From contig CAMTMP010000002.1 in assembly GCA_947073545.1 (NCBI GenBank), positions 1 to 64,000 on the forward strand: a DNA stretch of 64,000 nucleotides, read 5' to 3'. This stretch comes from an uncultured bacterium (GTDB lineage: Bacteria > Bacillota > Clostridia > Lachnospirales > Lachnospiraceae). This document shows positions 2,827 through 40,685 of the stretch, piece after piece; position 1 is the first letter of the stretch; every line of letters begins with the position of its first letter. Below the pieces are notes generated by a model. That model was not told the origin of the DNA, searched no databases, and worked only from the letters and a program-made list of their open reading frames with translations. Position numbers and translations under genes: made by a program.

Positions 2827-4308
2827 ATGGCTGGATTAAGGGACTGGATGATAGAACACCGCAGAGAGCTAATTGTCAGATTGCTGCTCATTTCGGCAGG
2901 CGGGTTATATGTCTATCTTTTCTCGTATACGACCTCGCCTCTGTATCCCAAATATTATTTTGGGGATGCAGCAGAGTTCTTGACTATAGGGAAAGCGTGG
3001 ACAACAGGGAAAATACCTTATAAGGATTTCTTTGATCATAAAGGCCCTGCAATTTATTTCATAAATATGCTTGGATTCATGCTAACCGGGACAAAAACAG
3101 GTGTATTTGTCATTCAGTGTATTTTTATGGCAGTTACCGCCAATGTGCTGTTCAGCATGGGAAAATTGCGTTCAAATAGCAGTGCATACGGGGGAATACT
3201 CGTTGCTATGTGTCTGCTCATACTTAGGGGTAATTATGGGGAAGGAAATTATGTGGATGAGTATTGCCTAACTTTTGTTGCGGCCAGTGCATATTACCAG
3301 TTGAAGTGGTTCTATAACAGAACAGAAAAGCACTCGCCGTATACTGCTGCGTTTTATGGGGCTGCGTTTGGATTTTGCGCCATGATGCGGGTGACAAATG
3401 CCATTCTTGTCTGTGCGGGTGTTCTGATTATTGCGATTACATTGCTGATAGGTAGAGAATATAAAAATCTGCTGCAAAATGCAGTAGGATTTGTAATCGG
3501 TTTTGCACTTGTGACGGTTCCATTTGGGGTTTATTTCGGAGTGCACGGTTGTTTTCAGGATTATATATTTGCGGCATTTACTTACAATTTTGACTACAAA
3601 GCAAATATTGGACGTTGGATTGACGGTGCAAATGCTGACACTTTGAGAAACTTTGGAAATTTATATGTCAGCTATTTTTGTGGATTGGCAGCGGCATTGC
3701 TGGCGTTTGGCCGTAAATCGTATTTACTGTCGTTTTGGCTGATTATATCCTTTGTGCTGGAAACATATCTCTTTTTTGGAGGAGCGCTGTTCGTTCAGTA
3801 TCCGCAAGTCTGCCTTCCGCAGGCAGCAATTCTTTTAAACGAAGTGTATATGCTGCGTTTCGAAGAGGAGGAGGGCATGATAAAAGCCGTGGCATTGGGA
3901 GGCATGCTGATCCCCTGTTATTTGTCGTTAACACAGCGGGTTCCTGAATTTATGAATGTGTATCGGAATTGTCATGTAGAAGAATTTCACTATGGAGCGT
4001 ATGAGTCTTTACTTGCGCAGGTTCCGGAGGAAGAACGGGATTCTCTTATGGCTTATGGGGATAACCGCTTTAAGGGAATCTATCTTGCATTTGATTTCAT
4101 GCCTGCTTATAAATATTACGCGATACAGGAGTGGAAGGCTTCTTTTAGTGATTATGTCAAGGAAGATACCCATGCGGTGTTTATGAATGGTGATGCAAAG
4201 TGGATTCTTACGGCTGGCAATACGTCAGTGATACAGGATGTGCTGGATCAACGGTATGAAGTATGTGAAACGGTGGAGGATTATGTGTTATTCAGGCTTG
4301 TTCATTAG
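2827..4308 (+). CDS. polytopic membrane protein, GT-C glycosyltransferase-like (GT39/PMT type)
   Basis: A 493-residue protein with about ten hydrophobic segments. Near the N-terminus an acidic, presumably extracytoplasmic loop reads YYFGDAAEFLTIGKAW, then TGKIPYKDFFDHKGPAIYF. This D...G..PY.D..DHKGP pattern is typical of lipid-linked-sugar GT-C enzymes of the PMT/ArnT kind, which move a sugar from a polyprenyl-phosphate carrier outside the membrane. The C-terminal 150 residues form a soluble domain. It starts one base after the glf stop, with GGGAGC upstream, so it is cotranscribed. The DPM1-like enzyme downstream could supply its polyprenyl-phosphate sugar donor (inference). The specific sugar and acceptor cannot be read from the sequence. 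Confidence 0.65.
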   Translation: MAGLRDWMIEHRRELIVRLLLISAGGLYVYLFSYTTSPLYPKYYFGDAAEFLTIGKAWTTGKIPYKDFFDHKGPAIYFINMLGFMLTGTKTGVFVIQCIFMAVTANVLFSMGKLRSNSSAYGGILVAMCLLILRGNYGEGNYVDEYCLTFVAASAYYQLKWFYNRTEKHSPYTAAFYGAAFGFCAMMRVTNAILVCAGVLIIAITLLIGREYKNLLQNAVGFVIGFALVTVPFGVYFGVHGCFQDYIFAAFTYNFDYKANIGRWIDGANADTLRNFGNLYVSYFCGLAAALLAFGRKSYLLSFWLIISFVLETYLFFGGALFVQYPQVCLPQAAILLNEVYMLRFEEEEGMIKAVALGGMLIPCYLSLTQRVPEFMNVYRNCHVEEFHYGAYESLLAQVPEEERDSLMAYGDNRFKGIYLAFDFMPAYKYYAIQEWKASFSDYVKEDTHAVFMNGDAKWILTAGNTSVIQDVLDQRYEVCETVEDYVLFRLVH

Positions 4309-4393: not shown

Positions 4394-5119
4394 ATGGAGA
4401 AATTATACATAGTAATACCGGCGTACAACGAGTCGGAAAATATAAAGCAAGTGATAGAGGAATGGTACCCGGTTGTGGAGAAATACAACGGAGAAGGAGA
4501 GTCAAGGCTCGTCATCATAAATGACGGGAGCAAAGACAATACATACGAAATCATGTGTGAACTGGCAGAAAACCTGCCGCTGTTCCAGCCCCTTACGAAA
4601 CCGAATGCCGGACATGGCGCGACGGTTCTGTACGGTTATAAGTATGCACTCGGTCAAGGGGCCGATTACATATTCCAGACGGACTCGGACGGGCAGACGA
4701 GACCTGATGAGTTCCACCAGTTCTGGGAAAACAGAAAGAAATACAGTGCCGTGATCGGCTATCGGAATCACAGGGAGGACGGCTTTTCCAGAATATTTGT
4801 AACAAAAACTTTGAAACTTGTTTTGAGGGTGATTTTCGGCCTGAATGTCACGGATGCGAATACACCGTTTCGGCTGATGAGCAGGGAGGTAATGGAGGAG
4901 TATCTTCCGGACATTCCGAAAGACTTTAACCTGTCCAATGTGATGCTTACCGTATTGCTTCTGTATAACAGAGAAAAGGTAAAATTTATCCCCATCACGT
5001 TTCGCCCACGTCAGGGCGGAGTTAATTCCATTAATCTTCCGAAGATTACGAAAATAGGGATACAGGCTGTTAAGGATTTCAGAATTATCAAAAAGGGTAT
5101 GAAGCGGCATAGCCGGTAA
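4394..5119 (+). CDS. family 2 glycosyltransferase, DPM1/polyprenyl-phosphate sugar synthase-like
   Basis: A 241-residue GT-A enzyme starting IVIPAYNESENI, with VIINDGSKDNT, GHGATVLYGYKYALG and the metal-binding DYIFQTDSDGQTRPDEF, then TPFRLMSREVM. This pattern belongs to the dolichyl/undecaprenyl-phosphate sugar synthases, which charge a lipid carrier from a nucleotide sugar on the cytoplasmic face. It has no C-terminal membrane helices; GtrA, a small membrane partner often paired with such enzymes, lies at 7963-8361. The start ATG has GGGAGAAGG just upstream. An 85-base gap separates it from the previous gene and holds a short decayed-looking reading frame (4318-4362). Family call is firm; the sugar is unknown. 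Confidence 0.88.
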   Translation: MEKLYIVIPAYNESENIKQVIEEWYPVVEKYNGEGESRLVIINDGSKDNTYEIMCELAENLPLFQPLTKPNAGHGATVLYGYKYALGQGADYIFQTDSDGQTRPDEFHQFWENRKKYSAVIGYRNHREDGFSRIFVTKTLKLVLRVIFGLNVTDANTPFRLMSREVMEEYLPDIPKDFNLSNVMLTVLLLYNREKVKFIPITFRPRQGGVNSINLPKITKIGIQAVKDFRIIKKGMKRHSR

Positions 5120-5250: not shown

Positions 5251-7182
5251 GTGATCCTGTTTTATAAAGAGAACAGAGTTGCAAAAACACCTGTAGATGC
5301 ATTAAAAAGAGTGCTGTCACACTTTAGGGAAATAAAGGTGTATGGCGGGAGCTGTTCCAGAGAAAAGGTATTGGAAAAGGCAAGATTCGATGCTGACGGC
5401 TGTCACACCTTTATTTACACATGGGATGTCTATAAAACAGTGAAGATCAGGGGAAGAATCCTTGGGAACTGTACGATTGATTATAGAAAAATATTAAACT
5501 GCGGTTTGTCTCATTATTATATGGATGGAGAGGACGAGTTTGCAAAAACCAACAATTCCCTGTTGGACGCTATTCTTACATACGTGGGAAGACTGGCTGA
5601 CTTTGTGAGGGAAAGTGAAATTGCCAATAGAGATAATATTGTTTCATATCTGGTGCGGTTCAAGGATGAACCGGCACAAAACTTGGAGGAAGCGTTACAG
5701 CGCATTCTGGTCATAAATCAGATCCAGTGGCAGATGGGCCACATTTTGGTCGGGCTTGGAAGACTGGATTATTGTCTTGACGGGTATGTGGAAGAGGAGA
5801 CAAAAGCGAAAAGACTTTTGACAGAGTTTTTCAGCCTGCTTCACAAGTATTATACAATCAAAAGCAACGCTTTGATGGGTGATACAGGACAGATTGTGAT
5901 TTTGGGTGGAAGGACAGAAGAGGGAGAGTGCTTTACAAATAATTATACGCAGTTAATGATTGAAACGATTCAGGAGTTGCAGATTCCGGACCCCAAGGTG
6001 TTATTGCGCGTTAACAGAGATATGGAAGATGCTGCGTGGACAGATATCATCCATGTCATGTCATCTAATACAGGCAGCCCGCTTATTTCGAATGATGATG
6101 AGATCATTGAGCATATGGTTTCGTTTGGATATGAGAGAGAAGACGCGAATAATTATATTACGTCTGCCTGCTGGGAGCCTATTGCCGGGAATTGCTACGA
6201 ACAGAACAATATTATTTCGTTAAACTATCTGGAACCATTTGAGCGTATTTCCAAAAGGCATGATTTACAGAAAATAGATACATTTGACCGATTGATGAAA
6301 TTATACTACGAAGAACTGAAGGGATATATAGAAAGTATAACGGGATATCTGGATACCTTGAAGTGGGAAAAGGACCCTCTATACTCCATGTTTGACGAAA
6401 ATGCGAGGAGATGCCGCAGAGATGTCAGTACAGGCGGCAGCAAATACAATAACTATGGAATACTTACGGTGGCAATGGCAAATGCTGTTAATTCCTTGAA
6501 CAATATCCGCGAATTGGTGTTTGAAAAGAAACTTTACACTTATGAAGAGCTGGATTCCTGCAGAAGGGCCAATTTCAAGAATCATGAGGCAGAATATCTG
6601 CTGCTGAAAAATGCGGATAAGAAGTGGGGACATGATGAGGACGAAGTTTGTTCCTTTGTGAATCAGATTACGGAGAAGACACAGATATTTTTGGACGCAT
6701 ATGAAAATCCGCTAGGGGGGGGGGTAAAATTTGGGCTTAGCTCACCTCACTATATTATGAACAGTGTGGACTATCCTGCATCATTTGACGGGCGGAGGAA
6801 AGGAGAACCTTTTTCGGTACACATATCATCCGGTGAGGGAATTGCATATACAGAATTGATGAATTTTGCCTCAAAGCTCGACTATTCAGGAAAGAGATTT
6901 AATGGCAATGTTGTTGACTTTATGGTAATGCCAGCTCTGGTGAAGCAGAATATAGCGCAGTTTGTACAACTGATTAAGGTATCTTTGTTGCAAGGGTGCT
7001 GCCAACTGCAGGCAAACGTAATAGATGCTGCAACATTAATACTTGCAAAAAATAATCCAAATGATTTTCCCAATTTAATAGTCAGGGTATGGGGATTTAA
7101 TGCATATTTTAACGAATTGCCGGAAGAATATAAAGATTATCTGATCGAGAGGGCAAGACAAAATGAAGCTGCGTTTAACTAG
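5251..7182 (+). CDS. glycyl radical enzyme (pyruvate formate-lyase family), atypical
   Basis: A 643-residue member of the glycyl radical superfamily. The C-terminal radical loop is RVWGFNAYF with Gly615. The active-site loop is SACWEP with Cys307 and Glu309, the C-x-E form seen in dehydratase and lyase members rather than the CC of pyruvate formate-lyase. SFDGRRKGEPFSVHISSG before the radical domain is also family-typical. The N-terminus is shorter than in standard members, about 760-850 residues. The gene overlaps its activase by 20 bases. The GTG start is weakly supported: the frame is open back to 5188, and a better start at 5175 (ATG with GAGG) would join by a 2-base slip in TATATA. Codons 489-491 lie in a run of ten G. 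Its place among glycosyltransferases suggests a sugar or polymer-related substrate (inference); the substrate is unknown. Confidence 0.85.
   Translation: MILFYKENRVAKTPVDALKRVLSHFREIKVYGGSCSREKVLEKARFDADGCHTFIYTWDVYKTVKIRGRILGNCTIDYRKILNCGLSHYYMDGEDEFAKTNNSLLDAILTYVGRLADFVRESEIANRDNIVSYLVRFKDEPAQNLEEALQRILVINQIQWQMGHILVGLGRLDYCLDGYVEEETKAKRLLTEFFSLLHKYYTIKSNALMGDTGQIVILGGRTEEGECFTNNYTQLMIETIQELQIPDPKVLLRVNRDMEDAAWTDIIHVMSSNTGSPLISNDDEIIEHMVSFGYEREDANNYITSACWEPIAGNCYEQNNIISLNYLEPFERISKRHDLQKIDTFDRLMKLYYEELKGYIESITGYLDTLKWEKDPLYSMFDENARRCRRDVSTGGSKYNNYGILTVAMANAVNSLNNIRELVFEKKLYTYEELDSCRRANFKNHEAEYLLLKNADKKWGHDEDEVCSFVNQITEKTQIFLDAYENPLGGGVKFGLSSPHYIMNSVDYPASFDGRRKGEPFSVHISSGEGIAYTELMNFASKLDYSGKRFNGNVVDFMVMPALVKQNIAQFVQLIKVSLLQGCCQLQANVIDAATLILAKNNPNDFPNLIVRVWGFNAYFNELPEEYKDYLIERARQNEAAFN
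6715..6724 (+). repeat. run of ten G inside the glycyl radical enzyme gene
   Basis: Ten consecutive G bases encode Gly-Gly-Gly and the first base of Val in the frame CTA GGG GGG GGG GTA. The run lies 369 bases before the glycyl radical codon, so any 1- or 2-base slip would remove Gly615 and inactivate the enzyme. Long G runs are classic slippage sites in phase-variable surface genes; here that role is inference. Confidence 0.95.
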
Positions 7183-7933
7183 TATTCAGAGGTTTAGTGT
7201 ACACGATGGGCCGGGGATCAGGACCACATTGTTCGCCAAGGGATGCAGCATCAGATGCCCATGGTGTGCGAACCCGGAGAATTTGAGCCATGAGATACAA
7301 AAATACTGTACAGAGTCAGGCGTTTGGAAACAGTACGGTGAGGATTACTCGATTGAACAAGTGTTTGATATATGTATGAAAGATAAAAATTTCTACGGTG
7401 CGGACGGTGGGATCACGGCGTCAGGCGGAGAAGCATTATTGCAGGCAAAACCTCTGGCGGAATTGTTTAAGAGACTAAAAGAGGAGCAAATCGGCTGCTG
7501 TCTGGAAACATCGCTATATGCGCCTGAAAAGAATTTGGAATTACTCAGAAATTATCTGGATTACATATATGTAGATATGAAGGTGCTGGATGAAGAGCGG
7601 GCGGATGATATTTTAAATGCGCCTTTACAGCTTTATGAGAAAAATCTGAAATATCTGTTTTCTGCGTTTCCACGTGAGAAAATATGTATTCGTATACCGT
7701 TGGTAGATGAAATGACGTTTACAGAGAAGAATATAAATGTTATCAGTGAACATTTGAAGAACTTTCAACCTTCGAAATGTGAAATATTCAGTGTACATAA
7801 TCTGGGCTCTGCCAAATATGCCACATTGAATTTAGCGTATCATAAGTTCAGAAAAATAACGGAGGAAGAATTGCTTAAGGTAAAGGGATATCTTCAGAAA
7901 CAGTCGGGCAATACATGTTTTGTTATTCATTAG
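7163..7933 (+). CDS. glycyl radical enzyme activase (radical SAM, PflA family)
   Basis: Installs the glycyl radical on the partner enzyme encoded just upstream. The radical-SAM cluster motif is GCSIRCPWC (Cys28, Cys32, Cys35), preceded by RFSVHDGPGIRTTLF, the PflA-family signature, and followed by GGITASGGEALLQ, which belongs to the SAM-binding region. At 256 residues it matches the simple PflA type: there is no inserted ferredoxin-like domain with extra clusters, unlike the activases of many glycerol-dehydratase-like enzymes. It overlaps the enzyme gene by 20 bases, which implies coupled translation and a dedicated pair. The following gene starts 29 bases downstream. Confidence 0.92.
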   Translation: MKLRLTSIQRFSVHDGPGIRTTLFAKGCSIRCPWCANPENLSHEIQKYCTESGVWKQYGEDYSIEQVFDICMKDKNFYGADGGITASGGEALLQAKPLAELFKRLKEEQIGCCLETSLYAPEKNLELLRNYLDYIYVDMKVLDEERADDILNAPLQLYEKNLKYLFSAFPREKICIRIPLVDEMTFTEKNINVISEHLKNFQPSKCEIFSVHNLGSAKYATLNLAYHKFRKITEEELLKVKGYLQKQSGNTCFVIH

Positions 7934-7962
7934 CGTGAGTCGTTTTATTTTGGGGGATGCAA

Positions 7963-8361
7963 ATGATAGAACTGATAAAAAAATATAAACCGTTGATAAG
8001 AGAAATGTTTTTATATGGAGTGTTTGGGCTTACTTCTGCAGGCATTGACACGCTGAGCTTCTGGGGATTTTCCTATTTAGCAATGTCGGTGCTTACTGCG
8101 AATTTTATAAGTGTCAACATTGGAATTACCGTTTCCTTTTTCTTGAATACTTTTATTAATTTTAGAAAAAGTACAGAGCTTGGCAAGCGTGCGGTTAAAT
8201 TCTTCGGTGTCGGATATATTGGGCTGGCGCTGTCAACCGTAATTATGTTCATCGGTGTTAATGTCATGGAACAGAATAAAATGCTGGTAAAGATCATATC
8301 TGTTTTTGTTGCGGCGGCGGTGCAGTACGTATTAAATAAATTTGTTACATATCGTAACTGA
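7963..8361 (+). CDS. GtrA family membrane protein
   Basis: A 132-residue protein with four predicted helices in the GtrA pattern: FLYGVFGLTSAGIDTLSF, NIGITVSFFLNTFINFRKS and a C-terminal QYVLNKFVTYRN. GtrA-like proteins act with polyprenyl-phosphate sugar synthases, probably helping flip the lipid-linked sugar across the membrane. The partner here is probably the DPM1-like enzyme at 4394-5119. ATG at 7963 is preferred over 7957 because GGGGG then sits 6 bases upstream rather than touching the start codon. Cotranscription with the activase gene is likely, since only 29 bases separate them. Confidence 0.85.
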   Translation: MIELIKKYKPLIREMFLYGVFGLTSAGIDTLSFWGFSYLAMSVLTANFISVNIGITVSFFLNTFINFRKSTELGKRAVKFFGVGYIGLALSTVIMFIGVNVMEQNKMLVKIISVFVAAAVQYVLNKFVTYRN

Positions 8362-8377
8362 TAAAAGGGGTGGGGCT

Positions 8378-9922
8378 GTGAAAAAGTCTGATAAATGTAT
8401 GGTGTCATTTGCCGTAATATATATTACCTTACCGATCATAATGTTTCTATTTGGCTGGATCAAATTTCCGATCGCATTGGCAGTCAGTCTGTTACTAGTT
8501 TTTATGGCAGTCAGCGTGATTAAAAATATAGAAACGGATGATGAGATAACGATCAGAGAGAATGCAGGATTTTGGCTGTTTTCCCTTGTGGTTATTGCGG
8601 TATGGACATTGTTTTCCGGCATCGGTAACTTTTCATATCAGACGGGAGATTATGTGGTAAGAAATCCAATGTTCAGAGATTTGGGGACTTACAACTGGCC
8701 CGTCATCTACGATTTGTCTATACAGCCGGATATTGTAAAAAATTACACCGGGAATGCACAAAGTGCGATGTATGCATATTATTTTACATGGTGGCTCCCT
8801 GCCGCTTTGATTGCCAAAGTGTTGTATTTTCTGGGAGTTGAGACATTTAGAGTAGAAATGGCTGCCAATTCAGCGCTGTATTTGTGGGCTGTTTTGGGAC
8901 TGTATCTGACATTCTATTGTCTTGTGAGGTATTTGAAAAGATATTCATATTGGATATTGTCTGGATTTATTTTATTTGGCGGACTTGATTTTCCGGCCTT
9001 TCTGATAAAAGAGATGCGGATTCCTGTGAACGGACATATTGAGTGGTGGACAGGTGTAGGTTACTTTCAATACTCTGCAAATACCACACAGCTTTATTGG
9101 GTTTTTAACCAATCAATTTCGGTGTGGTTGATTGTCGCAGTATTGCTTTTACTGCGCAATAATAAAACCCAGGCCGGATGGGCATCTCTTTGCGTTGCCT
9201 ATTCGCCTTTTGCAACGATTGGAATGGTTCCCATTGCGCTTGTTGCTATTTTACATAAGGGTGGTAATAAATTAAAGGATAGGATACGAAATGCAATTTC
9301 TGTTGAAAATACGCTAATTCCTATGGCAATGGCAGTTGTTTTTGGTCTGTTCTATTTTCTTCAACTGTCAGCAGGGGATATAAATGGAGGGTGGGTTTTT
9401 AAGGCTAATCCAGAATTTAAAACATTTACCATATATGTCGTTTTTATCATTGTCGAGTTTCTGGTTTATTTTTACGTCATGGGCAAGACTGCCGGAAAAT
9501 ATAAATTTTATGCAGTGACATTAATCGAGCTGTTATTATTTCCGCTGTATAAGTCCGGAATGAATAATGATTTCACCATGAGGGCATCTGTTCCTGCACT
9601 TTTTATATTGATGGTGATGTGTCTGCAATATGTATTTGAAATGGAAACCGCAGGGCAAAAGAAGAGACGGAAAGCAATGCTGATATGTCTGCTAATCGGT
9701 TATCTGACATCGTGCGTAGAAATACAGAGAAATGTTTCCAATACCATAAAAATCTCCCAGCAGGATTATATAAATGAAGAAGTTTATTCTTTTGGATGTA
9801 TGCAGACGGAGAGTGAGAGACAAATTTTGATAAATATAAACCAGTATATGGTTTTGGAAGATGAGTTGAAGGCATCCCTGTTTTATAAATATTTGCTGAA
9901 ACAATCGGATAGATACAACTGA
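8378..9922 (+). CDS. polytopic membrane protein of unknown function, possible GT-C enzyme
   Basis: A 514-residue protein with about 11-12 hydrophobic segments and a short charged C-terminal tail. A large loop after the second pair of helices reads GDYVVRNPMFRDLGTYNWP, and a later segment reads PLYKSGMNNDFTMRASVPA. An acidic or aromatic loop between early helices is compatible with a GT-C glycosyltransferase, but no signature proves it. GTG at 8378 is chosen because AAGGGGTGGGG lies directly upstream; an upstream TTG at 8342 would overlap gtrA and lacks a site. Its location next to gtrA in a polysaccharide locus makes a role in glycan assembly likely. Confidence 0.6.
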   Translation: MKKSDKCMVSFAVIYITLPIIMFLFGWIKFPIALAVSLLLVFMAVSVIKNIETDDEITIRENAGFWLFSLVVIAVWTLFSGIGNFSYQTGDYVVRNPMFRDLGTYNWPVIYDLSIQPDIVKNYTGNAQSAMYAYYFTWWLPAALIAKVLYFLGVETFRVEMAANSALYLWAVLGLYLTFYCLVRYLKRYSYWILSGFILFGGLDFPAFLIKEMRIPVNGHIEWWTGVGYFQYSANTTQLYWVFNQSISVWLIVAVLLLLRNNKTQAGWASLCVAYSPFATIGMVPIALVAILHKGGNKLKDRIRNAISVENTLIPMAMAVVFGLFYFLQLSAGDINGGWVFKANPEFKTFTIYVVFIIVEFLVYFYVMGKTAGKYKFYAVTLIELLLFPLYKSGMNNDFTMRASVPALFILMVMCLQYVFEMETAGQKKRRKAMLICLLIGYLTSCVEIQRNVSNTIKISQQDYINEEVYSFGCMQTESERQILININQYMVLEDELKASLFYKYLLKQSDRYN

Positions 9923-9975
9923 AAAAGATTCCTGATATGAGAACAGAAAAAACAGTGAAAAAGGAGGGACATGTC

Positions 9976-10200
9976 ATGGATTACAACGAAAGGATTCGAG
10001 AGCTTCGGAAAAACAGATCCATGGTACAACAGGAGATCGCGGATATGCTGGAAGTAGGGCAGCGTACCTATGCAGATTATGAGAATGGCAAGACGAGAAT
10101 CCCGGTAAAGAGTTTACTGGTTCTTGCCAGATTTTACGATGTGTCCATGGACTATATTTCGGGAGCAAGCAATGTGAAGGATCGATATCCATGCCGATAG
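9976..10200 (+). CDS. XRE-family helix-turn-helix protein
   Basis: A 74-residue protein that is almost entirely one Cro/CI-type helix-turn-helix: YNERIRELRKNRSMVQQEIA, then VGQRTYADYENGKTRIPVKS and LARFYDVSMDYISG. The ATG at 9976 is preceded by AAGGAGGG, so the longer reading frame from 9937 is not used. Such one-domain regulators act as dimers and often control neighbouring genes. It lies between the membrane-protein gene and the FrhB/pyruvyltransferase gene, 52 bases before the latter, and may regulate the export half of the locus (inference). Confidence 0.85.
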   Translation: MDYNERIRELRKNRSMVQQEIADMLEVGQRTYADYENGKTRIPVKSLLVLARFYDVSMDYISGASNVKDRYPCR

Positions 10201-10252
10201 GAACGGCTATGGGTTTGTTGGTAAAATGATCTGACAGAGAAGGGAAGACGTA

Positions 10253-12571
10253 ATGAACCATTTGATAAGGTTTCTGGAATCGGAAAAGAAACAGTGTACA
10301 GGTTGCGGCGCATGCCTGAATATCTGTCCCGTAGATGCTATCCATATGGAAAAGAATGCGCAGGGATTTTTTTACCCGGCGGTCGACACGAATGTATGTA
10401 TTGATTGTAACAAGTGTGAAAATATTTGTCCGAAGTTACATGCTTATCGAGAAAATACAGATTCCCCGGAGTGCTATGCCGCAAGGGCAAAAGACGCTGT
10501 CAGACAGGTTAGCTCGTCGGGCGGGATATTTACGGTTCTGGCAGAATATGTGCTGAAAAAGGGCGGTTTGGTATGCGGGGCATCCATGGAGTCGGATTTC
10601 CGGGTGCGGCATATATGTATTGATCGGAGAGAAGACTTAAGCAAACTCAGACAGTCCAAGTATGTCCAAAGCGACACGGGGTTGGTTTATCGGGAAATCG
10701 GCCGATATCTGGAAGATAAGAGAAGGGTTCTTTTTTCCGGGTGTCCCTGTCAAGTGGCCGCTGCGCGCAACTATTTTGGGGAGAATGACAGGATCTTATA
10801 TGCTGACCTTTTGTGTCATGGTGTTCCTTCCGTGCAGATGCTGCAGGATTATATGCGGGAAAATTTTGACCTGGACCAGGTGAGCAGCCTGCAGTTTCGG
10901 AGTAAACAGAACGGATGGAGGTCAGACCAGCTCCGGGTATTTTATAAGGATCATACTTCACAGCCGATTCCATGGGCGGAGAGTGCCTACGAGGAAGGAT
11001 TTCACAGAAATATTTCCCTGCGGGACAGCTGTGAGGACTGCGAATTTTGCGGGATGCGCAGGCAGGGCGACCTGACAATTGGCGATTTCTGGAGGGTGGA
11101 AGAGTATGATCCGGGACTGAATGATGGAAAAGGGACAAGCGTTGTGCTTGTGAATAATGAGCGCGGCAGGAAAATACTGAATCGGATCAAGGGAAGTTTA
11201 TATGACATTCAAAAAACGCCCATAGAGGCTGCCAGATTCAACCGATTTTCAGAAAGGTACGAAGCGCATCCACAGAAGGAGCGTTTCAAGCTTCTGTATC
11301 CGGGACATTCTTTCAGTGATGCGGCTATGCAGTGCAGGCATTCCCTGTATGATATTGGATTGGTCGGCATCTACGCCGTTGATAATTACGGCGGACAACT
11401 GACGCAGTATGCACTCTACCAGACGTTAACGGATCTGGGCTATTCGGTGTTAATGATAGCGCAGCCGTTAGATTCAAAAATAAAACCTGATCCGAAAGGA
11501 GCTCATCTTTTTGGGAAGGATCCTTATGCGCAGTGGGATAAAAGCCGGTATTTTGCCAATATAGCGGAAATGAAATTCCTGAATCTGCAGTGCCGGGTTT
11601 TCGTGACCGGCTCGGACCAGATGTTCAACAACAATTTATATAAAGAGTTTAATAAATACATGACGCAGAATTTCGTGACGGATAATCATTGTAAAATTGC
11701 CTATGCAGCCTCCTTCGGACATGACAAGATCTGGGGCACAGAGCGCGAGCGGGCGTCAGAGTCTTTTTTTATGAAGAAATTTGATTACTTTTCCGTAAGA
11801 GAGGCTTCCGGTGTGGACATCTGCAGGAAAGAATTTGGCGTGAACGCCGTCCAGGTTCTTGATCCGGTGTTCCTTTGTCCGCCGGAAAGATTTGGGGAGC
11901 TTATTGACCGGGGCAGCGGTTCCATACCGGACAAGTCTTATCTGTTTGCCTATATTCTGGATCCAGACAGGGAAAAGGAAGGAATTTTGAGGGATTACTC
12001 GGATAAGCACAATTTGGCAATCAAAGCGATTACTGACAAATATTTTTATTCTGAAGATGCGATAGACAAAATGTGGGATATAGAAACGGAAACAGGTGTC
12101 AGCATGGAGAGCTGGATTGCACATATTGCAAAAAGCAGGTTTGTGATTACGGATTCCTTCCACGGGATGTGCTTGGCAATCTTGAATCACAGGCAGTTTA
12201 TTGCGATTGTAAATAAGCTGCGGGGTGAAACCCGGTTTGTATCGCTCCTTTGCCTTTTGGGGCTGGAGGAGAGAATGATTTATTCGAGTGCGGCACTGAA
12301 GGACAAGTTAGAAAGTCTTACGCCCATAGATTATGAAAAAATAGATCGTATCTTAGAGAGTGAAAAGGGAAAATCCCTCCAGTGGCTTTGCAACGCGATA
12401 GAAGAGGGGAAAAAGCTGAAAAAGCCGCTGTCAACATTTGACATGACGGATGGGAGAATCGATGAGCTGTGGAAACGTACAGACAGAAGGTATGATGAAG
12501 CGAGGAAGAGAATAGAGAAACTTGAAACTGAGATTGAGACCCTGAAAGAGGAACTGAGAAACCGGAGGTAA
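10253..12571 (+). CDS. FrhB-type iron-sulfur protein fused to polysaccharide pyruvyl transferase
   Basis: A 772-residue two-domain protein. Residues 10-60 carry two [4Fe-4S] cluster motifs (Cys15, 18, 21, 25 and Cys49, 52, 55, 59). An F420-hydrogenase/dehydrogenase beta-subunit (FrhB) domain follows, with VSSSGGIFTVLAEY, LFSGCPCQVAAARNYFG and CGMRRQGDLTIGDFW. From about residue 366 a polysaccharide pyruvyl-transferase domain begins (IGLVGIYAVDNYGGQLTQYA), with FVTGSDQMFNNN and VITDSFHGMCLAI. The last 40 residues form a charged coiled coil. The second domain should add a ketal-pyruvate to a sugar from phosphoenolpyruvate. The FrhB half is probably a flavin redox module whose role in glycan synthesis is unclear. 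The gene lies 9 bases upstream of the ABC permease gene. Confidence 0.88.
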   Translation: MNHLIRFLESEKKQCTGCGACLNICPVDAIHMEKNAQGFFYPAVDTNVCIDCNKCENICPKLHAYRENTDSPECYAARAKDAVRQVSSSGGIFTVLAEYVLKKGGLVCGASMESDFRVRHICIDRREDLSKLRQSKYVQSDTGLVYREIGRYLEDKRRVLFSGCPCQVAAARNYFGENDRILYADLLCHGVPSVQMLQDYMRENFDLDQVSSLQFRSKQNGWRSDQLRVFYKDHTSQPIPWAESAYEEGFHRNISLRDSCEDCEFCGMRRQGDLTIGDFWRVEEYDPGLNDGKGTSVVLVNNERGRKILNRIKGSLYDIQKTPIEAARFNRFSERYEAHPQKERFKLLYPGHSFSDAAMQCRHSLYDIGLVGIYAVDNYGGQLTQYALYQTLTDLGYSVLMIAQPLDSKIKPDPKGAHLFGKDPYAQWDKSRYFANIAEMKFLNLQCRVFVTGSDQMFNNNLYKEFNKYMTQNFVTDNHCKIAYAASFGHDKIWGTERERASESFFMKKFDYFSVREASGVDICRKEFGVNAVQVLDPVFLCPPERFGELIDRGSGSIPDKSYLFAYILDPDREKEGILRDYSDKHNLAIKAITDKYFYSEDAIDKMWDIETETGVSMESWIAHIAKSRFVITDSFHGMCLAILNHRQFIAIVNKLRGETRFVSLLCLLGLEERMIYSSAALKDKLESLTPIDYEKIDRILESEKGKSLQWLCNAIEEGKKLKKPLSTFDMTDGRIDELWKRTDRRYDEARKRIEKLETEIETLKEELRNRR

Positions 12572-12579
12572 GATGCGAC

Positions 12580-13680
12580 ATGTTTTTTGTCAGCATAGCA
12601 ATGTTCTTTATCGCACCGCTCACAGCGTGGAAAATTCACAGTGCAATGCGGGAAACGAATATGTGGGATAAAAAGGGTATAAAGGTTATAGCGGCATATT
12701 TCCTTGTTTTGAATGCTGCTGCATTTGCTGTGTCGGCATACCGTGGCGTTGATATGCAAGGGTGGAATCCTTTTACCACGACCGTATCATTTCGATTAAA
12801 GTACATTGCGCTTAGCACCCTGATGGGTGTCTGCATGGCGTGTGTACTGTGCGGCTTTTTGAACAGAGGCATTACTGTGGCGGAAATCAGGAAATATGCG
12901 GTCAGATTTTTTGTAGATATGAAAAAATATTTCCCCTATGCCGTCCGCGCCGCGAGGGCGGACTTGAAAGCGGAAGTGACCAATTCCTTTCTGGACTGGA
13001 TGTGGTGGCTGATCGAACCGTTTTGTATGATGCTGATTTATACGGTTATGTTCGGCGTCGTGTTTGACGCAGCGGAAGAGTATTTCCCGATTTTCATTTT
13101 TATCGGCATTACCATGTGGAGTTTTTTTACCAGAGGAATTACGGGAAGTGTGGAGATGGTACGTGCGAACAGAGGAATAGTCACAAGGATCTATCTGCCA
13201 AAATATATTCTGCTGTTCTCGAAACTTATGGTAAACGGTTTTAAGATGCTTGTGTCCTTTGCGGTTATCGCGGTGATGCTTGTTGTGTTCCGGGTGAGGG
13301 TAACGGGCAGCGTGCTGGCGATGGCGCCGATTCTGGCAGTGCTCTTTCTGATTACCTTTGGCATTGGAAGCATATTGATGCATTACGGCGTGTATGTGAA
13401 TGATCTGTCTTATATTACGGGTATTCTGCTTACTATGATGATGTATCTGACCGGAACCTTTTATGCCGTTGCAAAGCGGATACCGGAACCTTTCGGAACG
13501 GTACTTGAAAAATGCAACCCGATTGCATTTCTGATCGCGGAGATGAGGAATGTGGTGCTTTATGGACAGGCATTGGACTGGAAACTTCTGCTTTTATGGT
13601 GCGTACTGTCCGTTTTTTTGGTCTGGATCGGCGTGATTACGATTTACCGCAATGAAAATTCTTATGTGAAGGTGATATAA
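12580..13680 (+). CDS. polysaccharide ABC exporter permease (Wzm/TagG type)
   Basis: A 366-residue ABC-2-type permease that would export lipid-linked polysaccharide with the ATPase encoded next. The core starts near residue 115 with YAVRAARADLKAEVTNSFLD and WLIEPFCMMLIYTVMFG, then IGITMWSFFTRGITGSVEMV and RGIVTRIYLPKYILL, all typical of the Wzm/TagG family. It differs from the usual 260-residue permease by an extra N-terminal stretch of about 110 residues with three hydrophobic segments. GGAGG stands 11 bases before the start, right after the preceding gene. The extra N-terminal region may contact the coiled-coil tail of the preceding fusion protein; that is speculation. Confidence 0.85.
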   Translation: MFFVSIAMFFIAPLTAWKIHSAMRETNMWDKKGIKVIAAYFLVLNAAAFAVSAYRGVDMQGWNPFTTTVSFRLKYIALSTLMGVCMACVLCGFLNRGITVAEIRKYAVRFFVDMKKYFPYAVRAARADLKAEVTNSFLDWMWWLIEPFCMMLIYTVMFGVVFDAAEEYFPIFIFIGITMWSFFTRGITGSVEMVRANRGIVTRIYLPKYILLFSKLMVNGFKMLVSFAVIAVMLVVFRVRVTGSVLAMAPILAVLFLITFGIGSILMHYGVYVNDLSYITGILLTMMMYLTGTFYAVAKRIPEPFGTVLEKCNPIAFLIAEMRNVVLYGQALDWKLLLLWCVLSVFLVWIGVITIYRNENSYVKVI

Positions 13681-13725: not shown

Positions 13726-14478
13726 ATGAGAGAAAAGAAAAGTGCGATAGAGCTGGAGGACGTGTGTATCCACTACAGCATTATGAACCATGTCTCTATA
13801 CGGAAAACCTTTCTTCGCAAAAAGAAGAGGAACGAGGTGTTCGAGGCGGTAAAGCATGTGACATTTTCCGTGCAGGAAGGCGATATTTTGGGGATCATCG
13901 GAAAGAACGGCAGCGGCAAGTCCACGCTTTTAAAATCCATTGCGGGTGTGTTTTCTCCCAATGCGGGGAAAATTGATTTAAAGGGACATTCCGTTTCCCT
14001 GATGTCACTGGGCGTGGGGTTTAAGGATACCCTTTCGGGAAGGGAAAATATAGTCCTGTCCGGAATGCTGCTTGGCTTTTCTGAGAGAGAGATTGAGGAG
14101 AGAGCGCAGGATATTATAGACTTTGCCGAGATCGGAGAATTTATAGACAGACCGGTGAGAACCTATTCAAGCGGCATGTATTCCAAACTTGCATTTTCCA
14201 TTACGGCGATGCTGGAGACGGATATCATGTTGGTTGATGAGGTCTTAAGTGTGGGGGATGAGCAGTTCAGAAAAAAGAGCCTGAGTAAAATGAAGGAACT
14301 GATCAATGACAGAAAACGAACGGTGATCATTGTCTCACACAGCATTTCTACCCTCAAAGAGCTTTGCGATCAGGTATTGTGGCTGCACGACGGGGAAGTC
14401 AGGCGGATCGGAAAGACGGAGGAAGTGCTCGGGGAGTATGCGGCGTATATGGCTCCTGAGGCGAAGAGCCCTAAATGA
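13726..14478 (+). CDS. polysaccharide ABC exporter ATPase (Wzt/TagH type)
   Basis: A 250-residue ATPase with Walker A GKNGSGKS (residues 59-66), signature YSSGMYSKLAFS, Walker B IMLVDEVLSVGD and the switch histidine in IIVSHSIS. The N-terminal insertion IRKTFLRKKKRNEVFEA before the Walker A strand is characteristic of Wzt/TagH proteins. It ends right after the nucleotide-binding domain and lacks the C-terminal carbohydrate-binding domain of longer Wzt proteins, so export need not depend on a terminal sugar cap. It is 45 bases downstream of its permease gene and is the last gene before a terminator hairpin. Confidence 0.92.
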   Translation: MREKKSAIELEDVCIHYSIMNHVSIRKTFLRKKKRNEVFEAVKHVTFSVQEGDILGIIGKNGSGKSTLLKSIAGVFSPNAGKIDLKGHSVSLMSLGVGFKDTLSGRENIVLSGMLLGFSEREIEERAQDIIDFAEIGEFIDRPVRTYSSGMYSKLAFSITAMLETDIMLVDEVLSVGDEQFRKKSLSKMKELINDRKRTVIIVSHSISTLKELCDQVLWLHDGEVRRIGKTEEVLGEYAAYMAPEAKSPK

Positions 14479-18050: not shown

Positions 18051-21000
18051 TTAAGGAGAATGCGAAGCATTCTCTGAATCGTCGCTGTTTTGCGGCGATT
18101 TCTTTAGGTTCTTTTGGGCCGTGGAGAGCATCAGCTTGATGCGGTTTAACTGGTTGACTTCACTGGCGCCGGGATCGTAGTCGATGGCTACGATGTTGGA
18201 GCTGGGGAACCGCTTGCGGAGCTCCTTGATGACACCTTTGCCGACCACATGGTTTGGCAGGCAGCCGAAGGGCTGGGTGCAGACGATGTTATTTACGCCG
18301 CTGTGGATCAGTTCTACCATTTCTCCGGTGAGGAACCACCCTTCGCCGGTCTGGTTGCCGATATCGACGATGGGTTTCGCGTAGTCCACCAAGGTGTAGA
18401 TGCTGACGGGCGGTGTAAAGTGCCTGCTCTTCGCAAATTCCTTCGCGGCCTGCGCGCGCAGCTTTTCAAGCGCACGTATGCCGAAGCGGGAGAGGAGGGC
18501 GGCCTTTTTCGAGGTGCCCAGAAAATCCGCCTTGTAGATCTGGTTGTAGAAGCAGTAGAGCATGAAGTCCAGCAGATCAGGGACTACCGCTTCCGCGCCT
18601 TCCGCCTCCAAAAGCTCCACCAGGTGGTTGTTGGCGGCCGGGGCAAATTTTACCAGAATTTCCCCCACAATGCCCACGCGGGGCTTGCGCAGATCTTCAT
18701 AGACGGGAATCCGGTCAAAATCTCTTACGATCTGACGGCACATCTTTTGAAAAGTCAGATAGTTTACGGATTTTCCGGAAACAAAGTCCCGGCATTTCTT
18801 AACCCATTCGGCATGCAGCGCATTGACGGAACCCGGCTCCTTCTCATAAGGCCGCATGCGGTACACGCAGCGCATAAAGATATCGCCGAACAGGGCGCCA
18901 TAAGCGGCCCGTATAAAGAGACCGGCATTCAGATGGAACCCGGGGTTACTCTCGATGCCTGCCAGATTTAAGGAAATTACAGGAATCTGGGGCATACCCG
19001 CCTTTTCCAGCGCTCGTCTGATAAAGCCCACATAATTTGTGGCGCGGCAGCCGCCGCCGGTCTGGCTCATGATGACAGCCACCTTATTCAGATCATATCT
19101 GCCGGAAAGCAGAGCGTCCATAATCTGTCCTACCACGATCAGAGAAGGATAACAGGCGTCATTGTTTACATATTTTAAGCCCACGTCCACGGCCTGTCTC
19201 GTGTCGTTGCCTAGCACTTCAAAGTGATAGCCGCAGGCATTGAAAGCGGCCTCTATGATTTCAAAATGGATTGGCGACATCTGGGGACAGAGGATGGTGT
19301 AATCTTTTCTCATCTCCTCGGTAAAGGGCACTTTTTTGATGGCGCTGGAGTGTATCTGCCGCTTCTCGCCCTTCTGCTCTCTGACTTTTATGGCTGAGAG
19401 CAGGGAGCGAATGCGGATTCTGGCCGCTCCCAGATTGTTGACCTCGTCGATCTTCAAGCAGGTATAGATCTTGTCGGAGCCGGTAAGGATGTCGTTAACC
19501 TGATCTGTGGTGACAGCGTCAAGGCCGCAGCCAAAAGAGTTAAGTTGGATCAAATCTAGATCATCCCTTGTTTTCACGAAACTGGCCGCCGCATAGAGAC
19601 GGGAATGGTACATCCACTGGTCGGAGACGATCAGGGGTCTCTCGGGAGCCGCCAGATGGGAGACGGAGTCCTCGGTCAGCACCGCGATATCGTAAGAAGT
19701 AATCAGCTCGGGAATACCGTGGTTGATTTCCGGGTCGACGTGGTAGGGACGTCCTGCCAGCACGATGCCGCGTTTATGGTTTGTTTCCAGGTAGCGGATC
19801 ACTTCTTCGCCTTTGTCACGCATGTCCTGTCTGGCTGCGGCAAGTTCCTTCCACGCAGCTTCAGCCGCATCCATAACGGCTGTTACCGGAAGCTCTCGAA
19901 ACTCTCTGGTCAATGCCTCTGTGACGGTCTGCAGGCTTTTAAAGGACATAAAGGGATTGCGGAAACCCACCTCGCCGCGTCCGATCTCTTCCACGTTATT
20001 TTTGATGTTTTCAGAGTAGGAAGTGACGATGGGGCAGTTGTAATGGTTGTTGGCGTCATGAAATTCGTCCCGCTCGTAAAAGAGAGCGGGGTAGAAGATA
20101 AAGTCCACTTTCTGCTTGATGAGCCATGATACATGGCCGTGCGCCAATTTGGCCGGATAGCATTCCGACTCGCTGGGGATGGACTCGATGCCCAACTCAT
20201 AGATTTTGCGGTTGGAAACGGGAGAGAGCACCACCCGATAGCCCAGCTTCGTAAAGAAGGTGAACCAGAAAGGGTAATTCTCGTACATGTTCAATACCCG
20301 CGGAATGCCCACAGTGCCCCGTTTCGCCTCGTTGGCCGGAAGAGGCTCATAGGAAAAGTAGCGTTTCAGCTTATAGTCAAAGAGATTCGGTGCGCCATTC
20401 TCCTTTTTGGCCCGTCCAAGCCCTCTCTCGCAGCGGTTGCCGGAGATATACTGGCGTCCGCCTGTGAATTTATTGACGGTAAGGCGGCAGTTGTTCGTAC
20501 AGCCTTTACACTTGGCCATGCTGGTTTCGAACTGCAGATTGGTAATCTGCTCCAGATTCAGCATGGAAGTCTGATACCCTTCCTTATAATGCGCCCTTGC
20601 GATCAGCGCTGCGCCAAAAGCGCCCATAATACCGGCAATATCGGGACGGATGGCCTCGCAGTCAGCTATTTTTTCAAAGCTCCTAAGAACTGCGTCGTTG
20701 TAGAAGGTGCCGCCCTGTACGACAATATTTCTGCCAAGTTCCGAGGCGTCGGAGACTTTGATTACCTTAAAGAGCGCGTTTTTGATGACGGAGTAGGCCA
20801 GTCCGGCGGAAATATCGGAGACGGACGCCCCTTCTTTCTGCGCCTGTTTTACTTTGGAATTCATAAAAACCGTGCAGCGGGTGCCAAGATCAATGGGATG
20901 TTCCGCAAAGAGAGCGGTTCTGGCAAAGTCCTCCACACCATAGTTTAAAGATTTGGCAAAGGTCTCTATGAAAGAACCGCAGCCCGAGGAACAGGCTTCG

Positions 21001-22328
21001 TTGAGCTGTACGCTGTCCACGGTATGATTTTTTATTTTGATGCATTTCATGTCCTGCCCGCCGATATCCAGAATACAGTCTACCTCCGGATCGAAAAACG
21101 CGGCGGCATTGTAGTGGGCTACCGTTTCCACCTCCCCGTCGTCAAGCAAAAAGGCGGCTTTCATCAGCGCCTCGCCGTAGCCTGTGGAACAGGACCGGGC
21201 AATTTTTACCCCGGCCGGAAGCAGGCGGTAGATCTCTTTCAAGGAGCGTATGGCGGTCTTTAAAGGACTGCCGTCGTTGCTGCTGTAAAAAGAGTAGAGT
21301 AGGGAGCCGTCGTCGCCTACGAGCGCTGCTTTTGTGGTGGTGGAGCCGGCGTCGATCCCCAAAAAGCAGTTTCCCTGATAGGAAGGCAGATCACCCGTGG
21401 CCACATGATGGGAGCTGTGACGCAGGCTGAAAGCGTCATAGTCCGCCTGTGTGGCAAAGAGCGGCTCCATGCGCTCCACTTCAAACTCCATCTTGATATC
21501 GGCGGAGAGCTTGGATGTCAGCTCCTCCATGGTATAAAAAGATTCCTCCTTCGCGTTTAAGGCCGAGCCGATGGCCGCGAAGAGGTGGGAATTGTCCGTG
21601 TCGATGATATGGGCGTCATCCAATTTTAACGTGCGGATGAAAGACTGTTTTAACTCCGATAAGAAGTGCAGCGGGCCGCCGAGAAAGGCCACATGTCCAC
21701 GAATCGGTTTGCCGCATGCAAGACCGCTGATGGTCTGGTTTACCACGGCCTGAAAGATGGAAGCGGAAAGATCCTCTTTCGTGGCGCCCTCGTTGATGAG
21801 GGGCTGGATATCGGATTTGGCGAACACGCCGCAGCGGGCTGCTATCGTATATAAAGAGTGGTAATTTTTTGCGTATTCATTGAGTCCGGACGCATCCGTC
21901 TGCAAAAGAGAAGCCATCTGGTCGATAAAGGAACCGGTGCCTCCGGCGCAGATGCCGTTCATGCGCTGCTCCACATTGCCGCCCTCGAAATAGATAATCT
22001 TGGCGTCTTCGCCTCCCAGCTCGATGGCCACGTCCGTGACAGGCGCGAAGGTCTGCAGGGATGTGGATACGGCGATCACCTCCTGCACAAAGGGGATCTG
22101 CAGGTGGTTGGCCAGCGTCAGGCCGCCGGAGCCTGTGATGATGGGATGCACGGTGAGGCCGCCAAGCTGTGCAAAAGCCTGAGAGAGAAGAGACGCGAGC
22201 GTCTCCCTGATATTGGCAAAATGCCTTTTGTAATCGGAAAAGAGTATTTGATGCTTGTCATCCAGAATGGCAATCTTGACGGTGGTGGAACCGATGTCAA
22301 TGCCAAGCGTATATTGCATATCACTCAT
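18051..22328 (-). CDS. giant 2-hydroxyacyl-CoA dehydratase activase-related protein
   Basis: A 1425-residue protein of the double-activase family. Two ASKHA ATPase (BadF/HgdC-type) domains open with [16 protein letters not shown] (residue 9 on) and [18 protein letters not shown] (about 322). Each has the cluster-ligand pair, [14 protein letters not shown] and [14 protein letters not shown] Cys-rich DUF2229 segment follows at about 603 ([19 protein letters not shown]), and the last 400 residues resemble the HgdB-like dehydratase component ([31 protein letters not shown]). Known activases use ATP to push an electron into 2-hydroxyacyl-CoA dehydratases. The substrate of these giant fused versions is not established. 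GGAGCG precedes the ATG. The last codons are encoded by an inverted repeat at 18056-18074. Confidence 0.9.
18056..18074. repeat. GAGAATGC/GCATTCTC hairpin overlapping the activase C-terminus
   Basis: Perfect 8-bp inverted repeat around GAA. It is the same core as the second hairpin of the elements at 32013-32107 and 61166-61257. On the reverse strand it encodes the final residues ENASHSP of the giant activase, so a mobile or spreading hairpin seems to have supplied the gene end. Confidence 0.7.
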
Positions 22329-28283: not shown

Positions 28284-28602
28284 AAAAAAAACCGCCTCAG
28301 GCAATAGATGCTTGAGACGGTAATAAACATAAGTTATTATCGCGGTACCACTCAAATTGATGCGGGAATACAGTTCCCGATCCGCTTTTTCCATATACAA
28401 TCATATATGCCGCCTTAGTAACGGGTGCGGTTCCCGCCGGGGATTACTTTGTCGGTATGCACTGACATTTCCACCCGGCCTCGAAAGTCCATTCGGTATA
28501 AGTGCCATGCCGTCTTTCACCAGCCGACGGCTCTCTGTAATGGGTAACCCATACTTACTACTCTTTCTCAAAGGTTTCGGATATGTGATTTTGCAATTAA
28601 TT
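28284..28602 (-). promoter_or_regulatory. T-box leader, specifier UGG (tryptophan)
   Basis: The reverse strand carries the T-box sequence GAGTGGTACCGCG (28353-28341), followed by terminator CCGTCTCAAGCA/TGCCTGAGGCGG and eight T (28320-28284). Stem I is recognisable by AGAGAGCCGTCGG...GACGGC and, on its 3' side, by CCGAA-TGG-ACT. In known T-boxes the specifier codon sits directly after GAA, so it reads UGG (28491-28489). Uncharged tRNA-Trp should stabilise the antiterminator and switch on the downstream transporter genes. Confidence 0.9.
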
Positions 28603-40503: not shown

Positions 40504-40535
40504 AAGTCCCGGACAGCGGCTGAGCGGATGGGAAA

Positions 40536-40655
40536 GTTTACTTGTGCAGACGCTTAGCCATTGGACGGGCAAGCCGGTATGAGCAAGTAGAGCGGCAGCT
40601 CGGATTGCGAATACGGCGGTGATTGCGGGAGTGCGCAGCACGGAGCAATCAGCTT
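40536..40655. repeat. structured intergenic repeat, GAGCAAGTA family, copy 2
   Basis: TACTTG (40548) can pair with CAAGTA in GAGCAAGTA (40581-40589). A GAGC/GCTC hairpin, GGATTGCGA, ACGGCGG and GAGTGCGCA follow. Compare copy 1 at 38256-38360. It fills most of the glyQS-alaS gap and contains no T-box motif. Confidence 0.6.
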
Positions 40656-40685
40656 TCAAAATGAAACGAGGAGGATGAGAGAACG

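Follow-up and report, generated by a model that had tools for sequence, protein, structure and literature searches.

Glycyl radical enzymes (GREs) of familiar role work in primary or catabolic metabolism, and those with a Cys-x-Glu (CxE) active site abstract a hydrogen next to oxygen and then eliminate the neighbouring substituent. Here we analyse a GRE and its activase encoded among surface polysaccharide genes in positions 1 to 64,000 (forward strand) of contig CAMTMP010000002.1 (assembly GCA_947073545.1) from an uncultured bacterium of the Lachnospiraceae; this whole stretch of 64,000 nucleotides (nt) is called the window. No description of a GRE in polysaccharide synthesis was found in the literature at the level of abstracts, most subscription journals lying outside that search. 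In one study, uncharacterised clusters remain in a sequence network of 14,228 GREs (PMC6453916).

Among single sequences of solved structure, PflD was the best match of the window GRE (8yjo, E 4.5e-42). According to a review, YbiW and PflD of Escherichia coli convert 1,5-anhydroglucitol- and 1,5-anhydromannitol-6-phosphate to 1-deoxyfructose-6-phosphate with a glycyl radical, so that a sugar ring as substrate is common to them and to the role proposed below (PMC12441222). They also have a CxE site, whereas PflD is longer (781 amino acids, aa), is catabolic and keeps His and His-Asp where the window GRE and its relatives have Asn73 and Asn319-Asn320. The B12-independent glycerol and propanediol dehydratases (1r8w and 5i2a; profile matches at E 8e-100 and 2e-95) are alike in the Cys-x-Glu site and the glycyl loop, and differ in that the loop reads RVAG rather than RVWG and in that the N-terminal part is shorter in the clade of the window GRE. 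GlfT1 and GlfT2 are homologous to glycosyltransferases of family GT2 that are fused to GREs in some loci and to the window gene at 124-1731; we know of no GRE partner or fusion for GlfT. In the window, the pair and its sites lie as follows.

5251-7182, + strand: GRE of a short clade, 643 aa, GTG start, with both Pfam GRE domains.
6169-6177, + strand: codons of the active-site residues Cys307-Trp308-Glu309 in the motif SACWEP (Cys307 at 6169-6171, Glu309 at 6175-6177).
6715-6724, + strand: tract of ten G (G10) within the GRE gene, a candidate slipped-strand switch, in frame here.
7090-7095, + strand: codons of Trp614 and the radical-bearing Gly615 in the motif RVWGFNAYF (Gly615 at 7093-7095).
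7163-7933, + strand: radical SAM activase, 256 aa, with CX3CX2C and without a ferredoxin-type insert, above the TIGR02494 cut-off.

Our preferred reading, to which we assign a probability of about 0.5, is that GRE and activase form a dedicated glycan-modifying radical system in which the GRE would be an eliminase acting on a sugar residue, probably galactofuranose (Galf). Its parts carry different confidence: a glycan role of the clade is very likely, elimination chemistry is reasonably probable and galactofuranose as the target is tentative, a little short of an even bet. Sequence comparison supports the assignment to the GRE and activase families, the separate clade, the link to polysaccharide loci and the link to GlfT and UDP-galactopyranose mutase (UGM); elimination chemistry, substrate and timing are what we infer.

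The first-pass annotation of this DNA had described a 643-residue GRE with the motifs RVWGFNAYF and SACWEP and a 20-base overlap with a neighbouring activase, and the coordinates of the open reading frames (ORFs) together with Pfam bear this out. Both GRE domains scored above the Pfam cut-offs (PF02901, E 2.6e-50; PF01228, E 6.1e-11), the pyruvate formate-lyase-like match running over residues 71-496 of the protein and positions 157-637 of the 647 in the profile. The two ORFs share 20 nt (7163-7182), and the second encodes a radical SAM protein that scored 196.9 bits against TIGR02494 (NCBIfam cut-off 174.35). By these profile matches the window protein is a member of the GRE superfamily with a cognate activase. 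It reached the cut-off of no curated NCBIfam GRE subfamily: the best of them, TIGR01774 (PFL2/glycerol dehydratase), gave 183.1 against 678.2 bits, the formate C-acetyltransferase equivalog NF007437 (PRK09983), which we take to be the PflD model, gave 166.5 against 1109 and pyruvate formate-lyase TIGR01255 gave 32.7 against 994.2. The active site of pyruvate formate-lyase is an adjacent Cys-Cys, and the window GRE has CWE there. The profile search confirmed the family and left the protein outside the curated subfamilies. In the 4.37-Mb window genome there are six PF01228 matches, this GRE included. Since the motifs are kept in clade members with 36-58% identity to it, the window GRE is no chance ORF. 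Its short N-terminus, at first taken for an oddity, proved to be a family trait, as unfused intact members measure 638-705 aa when those cut by contig ends are excluded; the exceptions, L054 and L116, are apparently broken.

Whole-protein searches covered 397 genomes of the window's family and 98 relative genomes, the window's own being included in each set. A close relative (E < 1e-120) occurred in 11 of the 397 genomes, own included, and a member of a sister clade in five more; four of the 98 (own included) had a match at E < 1e-140 and 54 had any GRE match. A scan of 84,980 species genomes yielded 155 relatives, and the loci of 79 of these were kept for analysis, many of them from metagenome-assembled genomes (MAGs). 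Because one of the two scan patterns contained VRVWGF, the invariance of RVWGF is partly by construction; the RVWG loop was also found in members retrieved by the whole-protein searches, sister clade included. Carriers among the kept loci belong to Lachnospiraceae, Oscillospiraceae, other Clostridia, Bacilli and one Tenericutes MAG, and further carriers are three Synergistota MAGs, one Eggerthellaceae MAG, one Thermoplasmata MAG and the spirochaete Breznakiella homolactica, with a complete genome. Seven Methanobrevibacter assemblies carry the GRE as well, and their sequences form a single branch (support 92 in the Shimodaira-Hasegawa-like approximate likelihood ratio test, SH-aLRT), which argues against stray contamination. 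In a quick tree, which came with warnings about long branches among the 16 other GREs and about letter composition in 30 rows, the 79 aligned sequences of the group, here called the glycan clade, were monophyletic together with a duplicate row of the window's own (SH-aLRT 100) and joined a five-member sister clade (SH-aLRT 99); the 16 further GREs, taken from related genomes, fell outside both. This alignment (A2) excludes the partial GREs L095, L116 and L054 and the close relatives L119 and L123, and for the 84 core genes counted below the sister clade, 10 duplicate GREs and the incomplete second GRE of L102 were set aside. Two loci hold two glycan-clade copies within 10 kb, namely L076 (199-2232 and 9755-11788, placed in different branches of the tree) and L102 (3-1172, cut by the contig end, and 9806-11833).

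Neighbours were classed by homology to representatives identified by Pfam. Among 83 GRE loci, a Wzx flippase was present in at least 47, UGM in 30, DUF4422 in 17, an undecaprenyl-phosphate sugar transferase in 17, a protein of the GDP-mannose dehydratase/epimerase type in 15, LicD in 11, an IspD-like cytidylyltransferase in 10, Wzt in six and Wzm in five. An activase ORF was found in 76 of the 83 loci; it lies on the same strand for 76 of the 84 GRE genes, within 60 nt for 53 and overlapping for 49. The nearest non-activase neighbours numbered 155 (13 more positions fell past contig ends), 144 of them co-oriented with the GRE and 43 of them Wzx. The other 112, judged from the best 25 of 129 families, included Glycos_transf_2 (28), DUF4422 (7), UGM (5), Wzy_C (4), LicD (3) and EpsG, pyruvyl transferase, Glycos_transf_1 and GtrA (2 each). 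A dehydrogenase as general partner was rejected, PF02826 being present in four of these 112 within the same best 25 families; for the one of the four identified individually, in L091 (8075-9058), a search of the other loci at E 1e-10 gave no homologue. In the window and its relatives, the pair is surrounded by glycosyltransferases and by a flippase or ABC export, and close homologues were found in polysaccharide loci, not in known catabolic contexts.

The linkage extends to gene fusions. In L062 (the same as L045), L063 and L072, a protein of 988-1017 aa begins with a GT2 and ends with the GRE, and in L118 (the same as L049) a GT2 is fused ahead of the activase. The tree places L062 and L063 as sisters with L072 close by, so one or two events may account for the three GRE fusions. 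GlfT1 was the best curated match for all three GRE-fused GT2s, NxGG[AS]GGF occurs in all four fused GT2s, and when 20 of the 36 transferases with the motif were combined in a profile, the solved structure that matched best was GlfT2 (E 1e-15). That the GRE is an ordinary catabolic one, sitting in the locus by chance, would be in keeping with the frequency of GREs in anaerobes (54 of the 98 genomes with a match) and with the base composition of the window copy: the GC content is 37-41% across the GRE, the activase, GtrA and the gene after it, against 42-50% in the other genes of the stretch. This low-GC block looks as if it had been exchanged as a unit, so that the window copy may be a recent arrival. 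We hold this explanation to be very improbable, as it is contradicted by the neighbourhood data, in which the glycan linkage recurs across phyla in a monophyletic clade and includes fusions. By the same recurrence the pair is not a recent insertion without conserved linkage to glycosyltransferases, even if the window copy itself may be recent.

For comparison, 40 Wzx loci without the GRE were taken from 26 genomes (nine of which have the GRE elsewhere); they were hand-picked among the matches listed, the requirements being a distance from GRE loci and a Wzx length of 443-523 aa. As 38 of the 40 come from the window's family, a near match by taxon holds for the Lachnospiraceae comparison alone. 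Enrichment was counted in loci of at least 12 kb, that is 71 of the 83 GRE loci and 37 of the 40 controls (12 and three left out). With p-values that are optimistic because the loci are related by descent, UGM occurred in 27/71 GRE loci against 3/37 controls (p 0.0012), an NxGGxGGF transferase in 27/71 against 2/37 (p 1.8e-4) and either of the two in 46/71 against 5/37 (p 2.5e-7). This motif definition was chosen after the sequences had been seen; the first definition gave UGM or GlfT in 41/71 against 5/37. UGM or the motif was present in 21/35 Lachnospiraceae GRE loci against 5/37 controls (p 6e-5) and in 25/36 of the remaining GRE loci, which are not taxon-matched. DUF4422 was mildly enriched (16/71 against 2/37; p 0.03), whereas no enrichment over the controls was seen for LicD, IspD, undecaprenyl-phosphate sugar transferase, GDP-mannose dehydratase (GMD), pyruvyl transferase or GT4. 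The Wzx label was given to 41/71 GRE loci and 24/37 controls, though a Wzx Pfam match defined the controls; it thus misses about a third of them, and the numbers given for Wzx in GRE loci are minimum values. UGM at the level of whole genomes was also tried as a test for Galf and was uninformative, since 358 of the 397 family genomes have UGM, all 11 glycan-clade carriers included.

These counts bear on the possible, if doubtful, alternative that the GRE has the same glycan role on another sugar (a hexopyranose, a heptose or a glycerol- or ribitol-phosphate unit), which would be dehydrated or deoxygenated while the Galf genes are mere co-residents. LicD, DUF4422 and the IspD-like cytidylyltransferase in 11, 17 and 10 of the 83 loci, the mild enrichment of DUF4422, the 25 of 71 loci without Galf markers nearby and the commonness of UGM in genomes would all fit such a sugar; the best match of the GRE-fused GT2s is GlfT1, however, and it is the Galf markers that are enriched over the Wzx controls, not LicD, IspD, GMD, undecaprenyl-phosphate sugar transferase or GT4.

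The sister clade (L055-L059) consists of five GREs of 690-784 aa with 27-28% identity to the window protein. It shares CWE, RVWG, Asn73 and Asn320 with the glycan clade and differs in its sugar-uptake and kinase neighbours and in its ferredoxin-type activases: the motif CxxCxxCxxxC is present in two of the three sister-clade activases found by script and in none of 76 glycan-clade activase ORFs, some of which are cut by contig ends. Selected neighbours were scanned in four of its loci (L055-L058). Those in L055 and L056 comprise LacI regulators or a periplasmic sugar-binding protein, ABC transporter parts of the ribose/xylose/arabinose type, a family 3 glycoside hydrolase and an iron-containing alcohol dehydrogenase, and those in L057 are SMP-30, MFS_2, an aldo-keto reductase and a xylulokinase-like FGGY kinase. 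In L058 a single neighbour was scanned, a cell-wall hydrolase. NCBIfam matches of the sister-clade neighbours lay under the curated cut-offs. Monosaccharide importers or a sugar kinase therefore adjoin the GRE in three of five loci. Import specific for Galf (YtfQ type) was considered for the sister clade and found unsupported, the best matches being of the ribose/xylose/arabinose type and all below the curated NCBIfam cut-offs. The sister clade looks catabolic, and its neighbours suggest common descent of the glycan clade and of GREs that act on monosaccharides. With this catabolic look, and with nearest solved GREs that act on small molecules, one might expect that the window GRE supplies a free, small building block, such as a polyol or deoxy sugar that is yet to be activated, and does not act on an activated or transferred sugar. 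This is unlikely in our estimation: most loci have no nucleotidyltransferase, kinase or dehydrogenase alongside the pair, its recurring partners being GT2 and Wzx, and the fusion partner is a transferase.

Cys307, Trp308, Glu309 and Gly615 were invariant in all 84 aligned sequences (79 of the glycan clade and five of the sister clade). In the core genes, ACWE was found in 84/84 and RVWGF in 83/84, the exception L054 being a fragment without the C-terminus. When the clade was mapped onto glycerol dehydratase 1r8w via a profile alignment, with residue numbers checked by counting, Cys433, Glu435 and Gly763 of the latter corresponded to Cys307, Glu309 and Gly615. By this alignment, H164, H281, S282 and D447 of glycerol dehydratase, which we take to be its diol-binding residues, are not kept in the clade. 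H164 corresponds to Asn73 (78/79 in the glycan clade, 5/5 in the sister clade), H446-D447 to Asn319-Asn320 (76/79 and 79/79; Pro-Asn in the sister clade) and H281-S282 to the variable residue 165 and Leu166 (74/79); there is a one-residue alignment gap beside 164-165, and His164 (76/79) may take over. The Cys-x-Glu site of diol dehydratases is thus present and their substrate residues are replaced, so the clade is no known dehydratase. Residues found in 79/79 of the glycan clade and different in the sister clade include Gln161, Lys204, Ser497, Asp556, Phe616 and Arg151, with His524 in 78/79. On this conservation mapping, the clade retains the catalytic residues and has new substrate residues.

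In the profile matches, GREs known or named as eliminases came best (1e-100 to 1e-95), followed by decarboxylase and succinate-synthase entries (1e-73 to 8e-51); as the weakest eliminase, isethionate lyase (about 1e-73), did no better than the decarboxylase entries, this preference is only a tendency. It speaks against C-C or other radical chemistry on the glycan in place of elimination, such as decarboxylation or addition of a substituent, which we hold to be distinctly unlikely, even though the chemistry may have shifted, given that Asn319-Asn320 differ from all five aligned GREs and that Asn73 stands where the four covered ones have His.

In the mechanism that we propose, the activase would install a radical on Gly615, from which it would pass to Cys307. 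The Cys307 thiyl radical would then take a hydrogen from a sugar residue, and Glu309 would assist a 1,2-elimination, with loss of water or of another C-O bond, to give a deoxy carbonyl sugar within the surface polysaccharide. The target would be the Galf unit of the neighbouring or fused GlfT-type transferase, either as activated sugar or as residue just transferred, and the reaction would take place in the cytosol before export. The exocyclic C5-C6 diol of Galf is glycerol-like, the type of group on which GRE dehydratases act, and the products would be a 5-deoxy-6-aldehyde or a 6-deoxy-5-keto furanose. The first-pass annotation had the pair make or modify a building block or substituent of the polymer, for example from a sugar-derived or polyol compound; the polysaccharide link is upheld by the recurrent loci and fusions, and for the compound our narrower hypothesis is a furanosyl sugar, likeliest Galf.

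Several observations weigh against an eliminase of Galf. An activase was not found in three loci of about 21 kb (L077, L080 and L090), and no conserved reductase partner for a carbonyl product occurs among the neighbours in GRE loci. The GRE-fused GT2s score below the cut-off of the GlfT1 equivalog NF050113 (74-83 against 330 bits), and the activase-fused GT2 matches a rhamnosyltransferase best and GlfT1 third. UGM alone is not enriched in Lachnospiraceae (6/35 against 3/37; p 0.30), its near universality at the genome level means that it does not discriminate there, and 25/71 GRE loci have neither UGM nor the GlfT motif in the sequenced stretch; optimistic p-values add to this. Finally, with the diol-binding residues of glycerol dehydratase replaced, plain diol dehydration is not assured.

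The genes that surround the pair in the window are listed here.

124-1731, + strand: galactofuranosyltransferase-like GT2 (GlfT2 homologue), 535 aa, matching PDB galactofuranosyltransferases at E 1e-25, with an NxGGAGGF motif.
1728-2825, + strand: UGM (TIGR00031, 424.5 bits; cut-off 303.75).
2827-4308, + strand: PMT_2-type membrane glycosyltransferase (Pfam).
4394-5119, + strand: DPM1/GtrB-like GT2 (PF00535), directly upstream of the GRE.
7957-8361, + strand: GtrA (PF04138), directly downstream of the activase.
8342-9922, + strand: hydrophobic protein without a Pfam match, by inferred role probably a membrane glycosyltransferase.
10253-12571, + strand: fusion of an FrhB-like protein and a polysaccharide pyruvyl transferase (Pfam).
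12580-13680, + strand: ABC-2 type membrane protein (Wzm-like), its Pfam score of 26.5 bits falling slightly short of the cut-off (26.9).
13726-14478, + strand: ABC ATPase (Wzt-like), by domain scan.

The pair was rightly said to be set between a DPM1-like transferase and GtrA. The first gene matched the GlfT2 structure 4fix at E 8e-22, its Pfam GT2 match being weak and below the cut-off. Because a GlfT2-like GT2 and UGM are both present, the window locus probably makes and transfers Galf; one of the two UGM matches of the window genome lies within it. A redox module within glycan loci, in which FrhB-type ferredoxin domains are joined to a polysaccharide pyruvyl transferase, occurs at window positions 10253-12571 and in L063 (13772-16513); proteins resembling some part of this fusion are present in 7/83 GRE loci. 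Small helix-turn-helix (HTH) regulators, similar by eye, lie near glycan genes at window positions 9937-10200 (HTH_3 by scan) and in L146 (5750-6010) of the same genome. The only Rfam matches in the window were a T-box leader (28310-28580, - strand) and a Clostridiales-1 RNA (40498-40661, + strand), both away from the GRE locus. Promoter-like sites (15 against 10.8, sd 3.3) and terminator-like sites (3 against 2.4, sd 1.4) were near the level of shuffled sequence. At 18051-22328 (- strand) the window encodes a 1425-aa ATPase of the BadF/BcrA type with DUF2229 and a weak match to 2-hydroxyglutaryl-CoA dehydratase.

The G10 tract at 6715-6724 is the only run of at least eight G or C in the window, and runs of seven or more were present in none of 99 other GRE ORFs examined (10 duplicates among them). 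The window genome has 17 G or C runs of at least 9 (9-11 long; 15 of exactly 10), some of them in L139-L149, and in our judgement this length distribution is unlike chance decay. At or beside tracts we found four Acyl_transf_3 proteins, an MBOAT protein (tract upstream), GNAT, GDPD, a BspA-LRR protein and a Listeria-Bacteroides repeat protein. Other tracts lie in a response regulator, a GntR regulator, a protein with a citrate-lyase-ligase domain, unclassified ORFs and intergenic DNA, so not all tract genes are surface genes. Reading frames are apparently interrupted at three tracts, and G or C runs of such length occur in 22 of 24 congeners. From this one assembly, the tracts suggest that the GRE gene may be one of the genome's contingency loci for surface structures and phase variable; the whole set is a candidate phase-variation repertoire in a Lachnospiraceae genus.

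Taken at its widest, the proposal would be that gut bacteria and methanogenic archaea have a biosynthetic GRE branch, coupled or fused to galactofuranosyltransferases, which converts Galf residues of their surface glycans to reactive deoxy carbonyl sugars, with slippage of G10 as the on-off switch in the window's species; in that full form it is on the unlikely side. The role should be directly testable, since carriers named as strains rather than MAGs exist: Breznakiella homolactica RmG30, [Clostridium] aerotolerans DSM 5434, Lachnoclostridium An196 and Lachnospiraceae NC2008, P6A3 and AC3007. A GRE clade devoted to glycan assembly would add an anaerobe-only radical route to deoxy and carbonyl sugars, would imply that gut bacteria and Methanobrevibacter carry sugars not yet described and would offer a handle on phase-variable surface chemistry.

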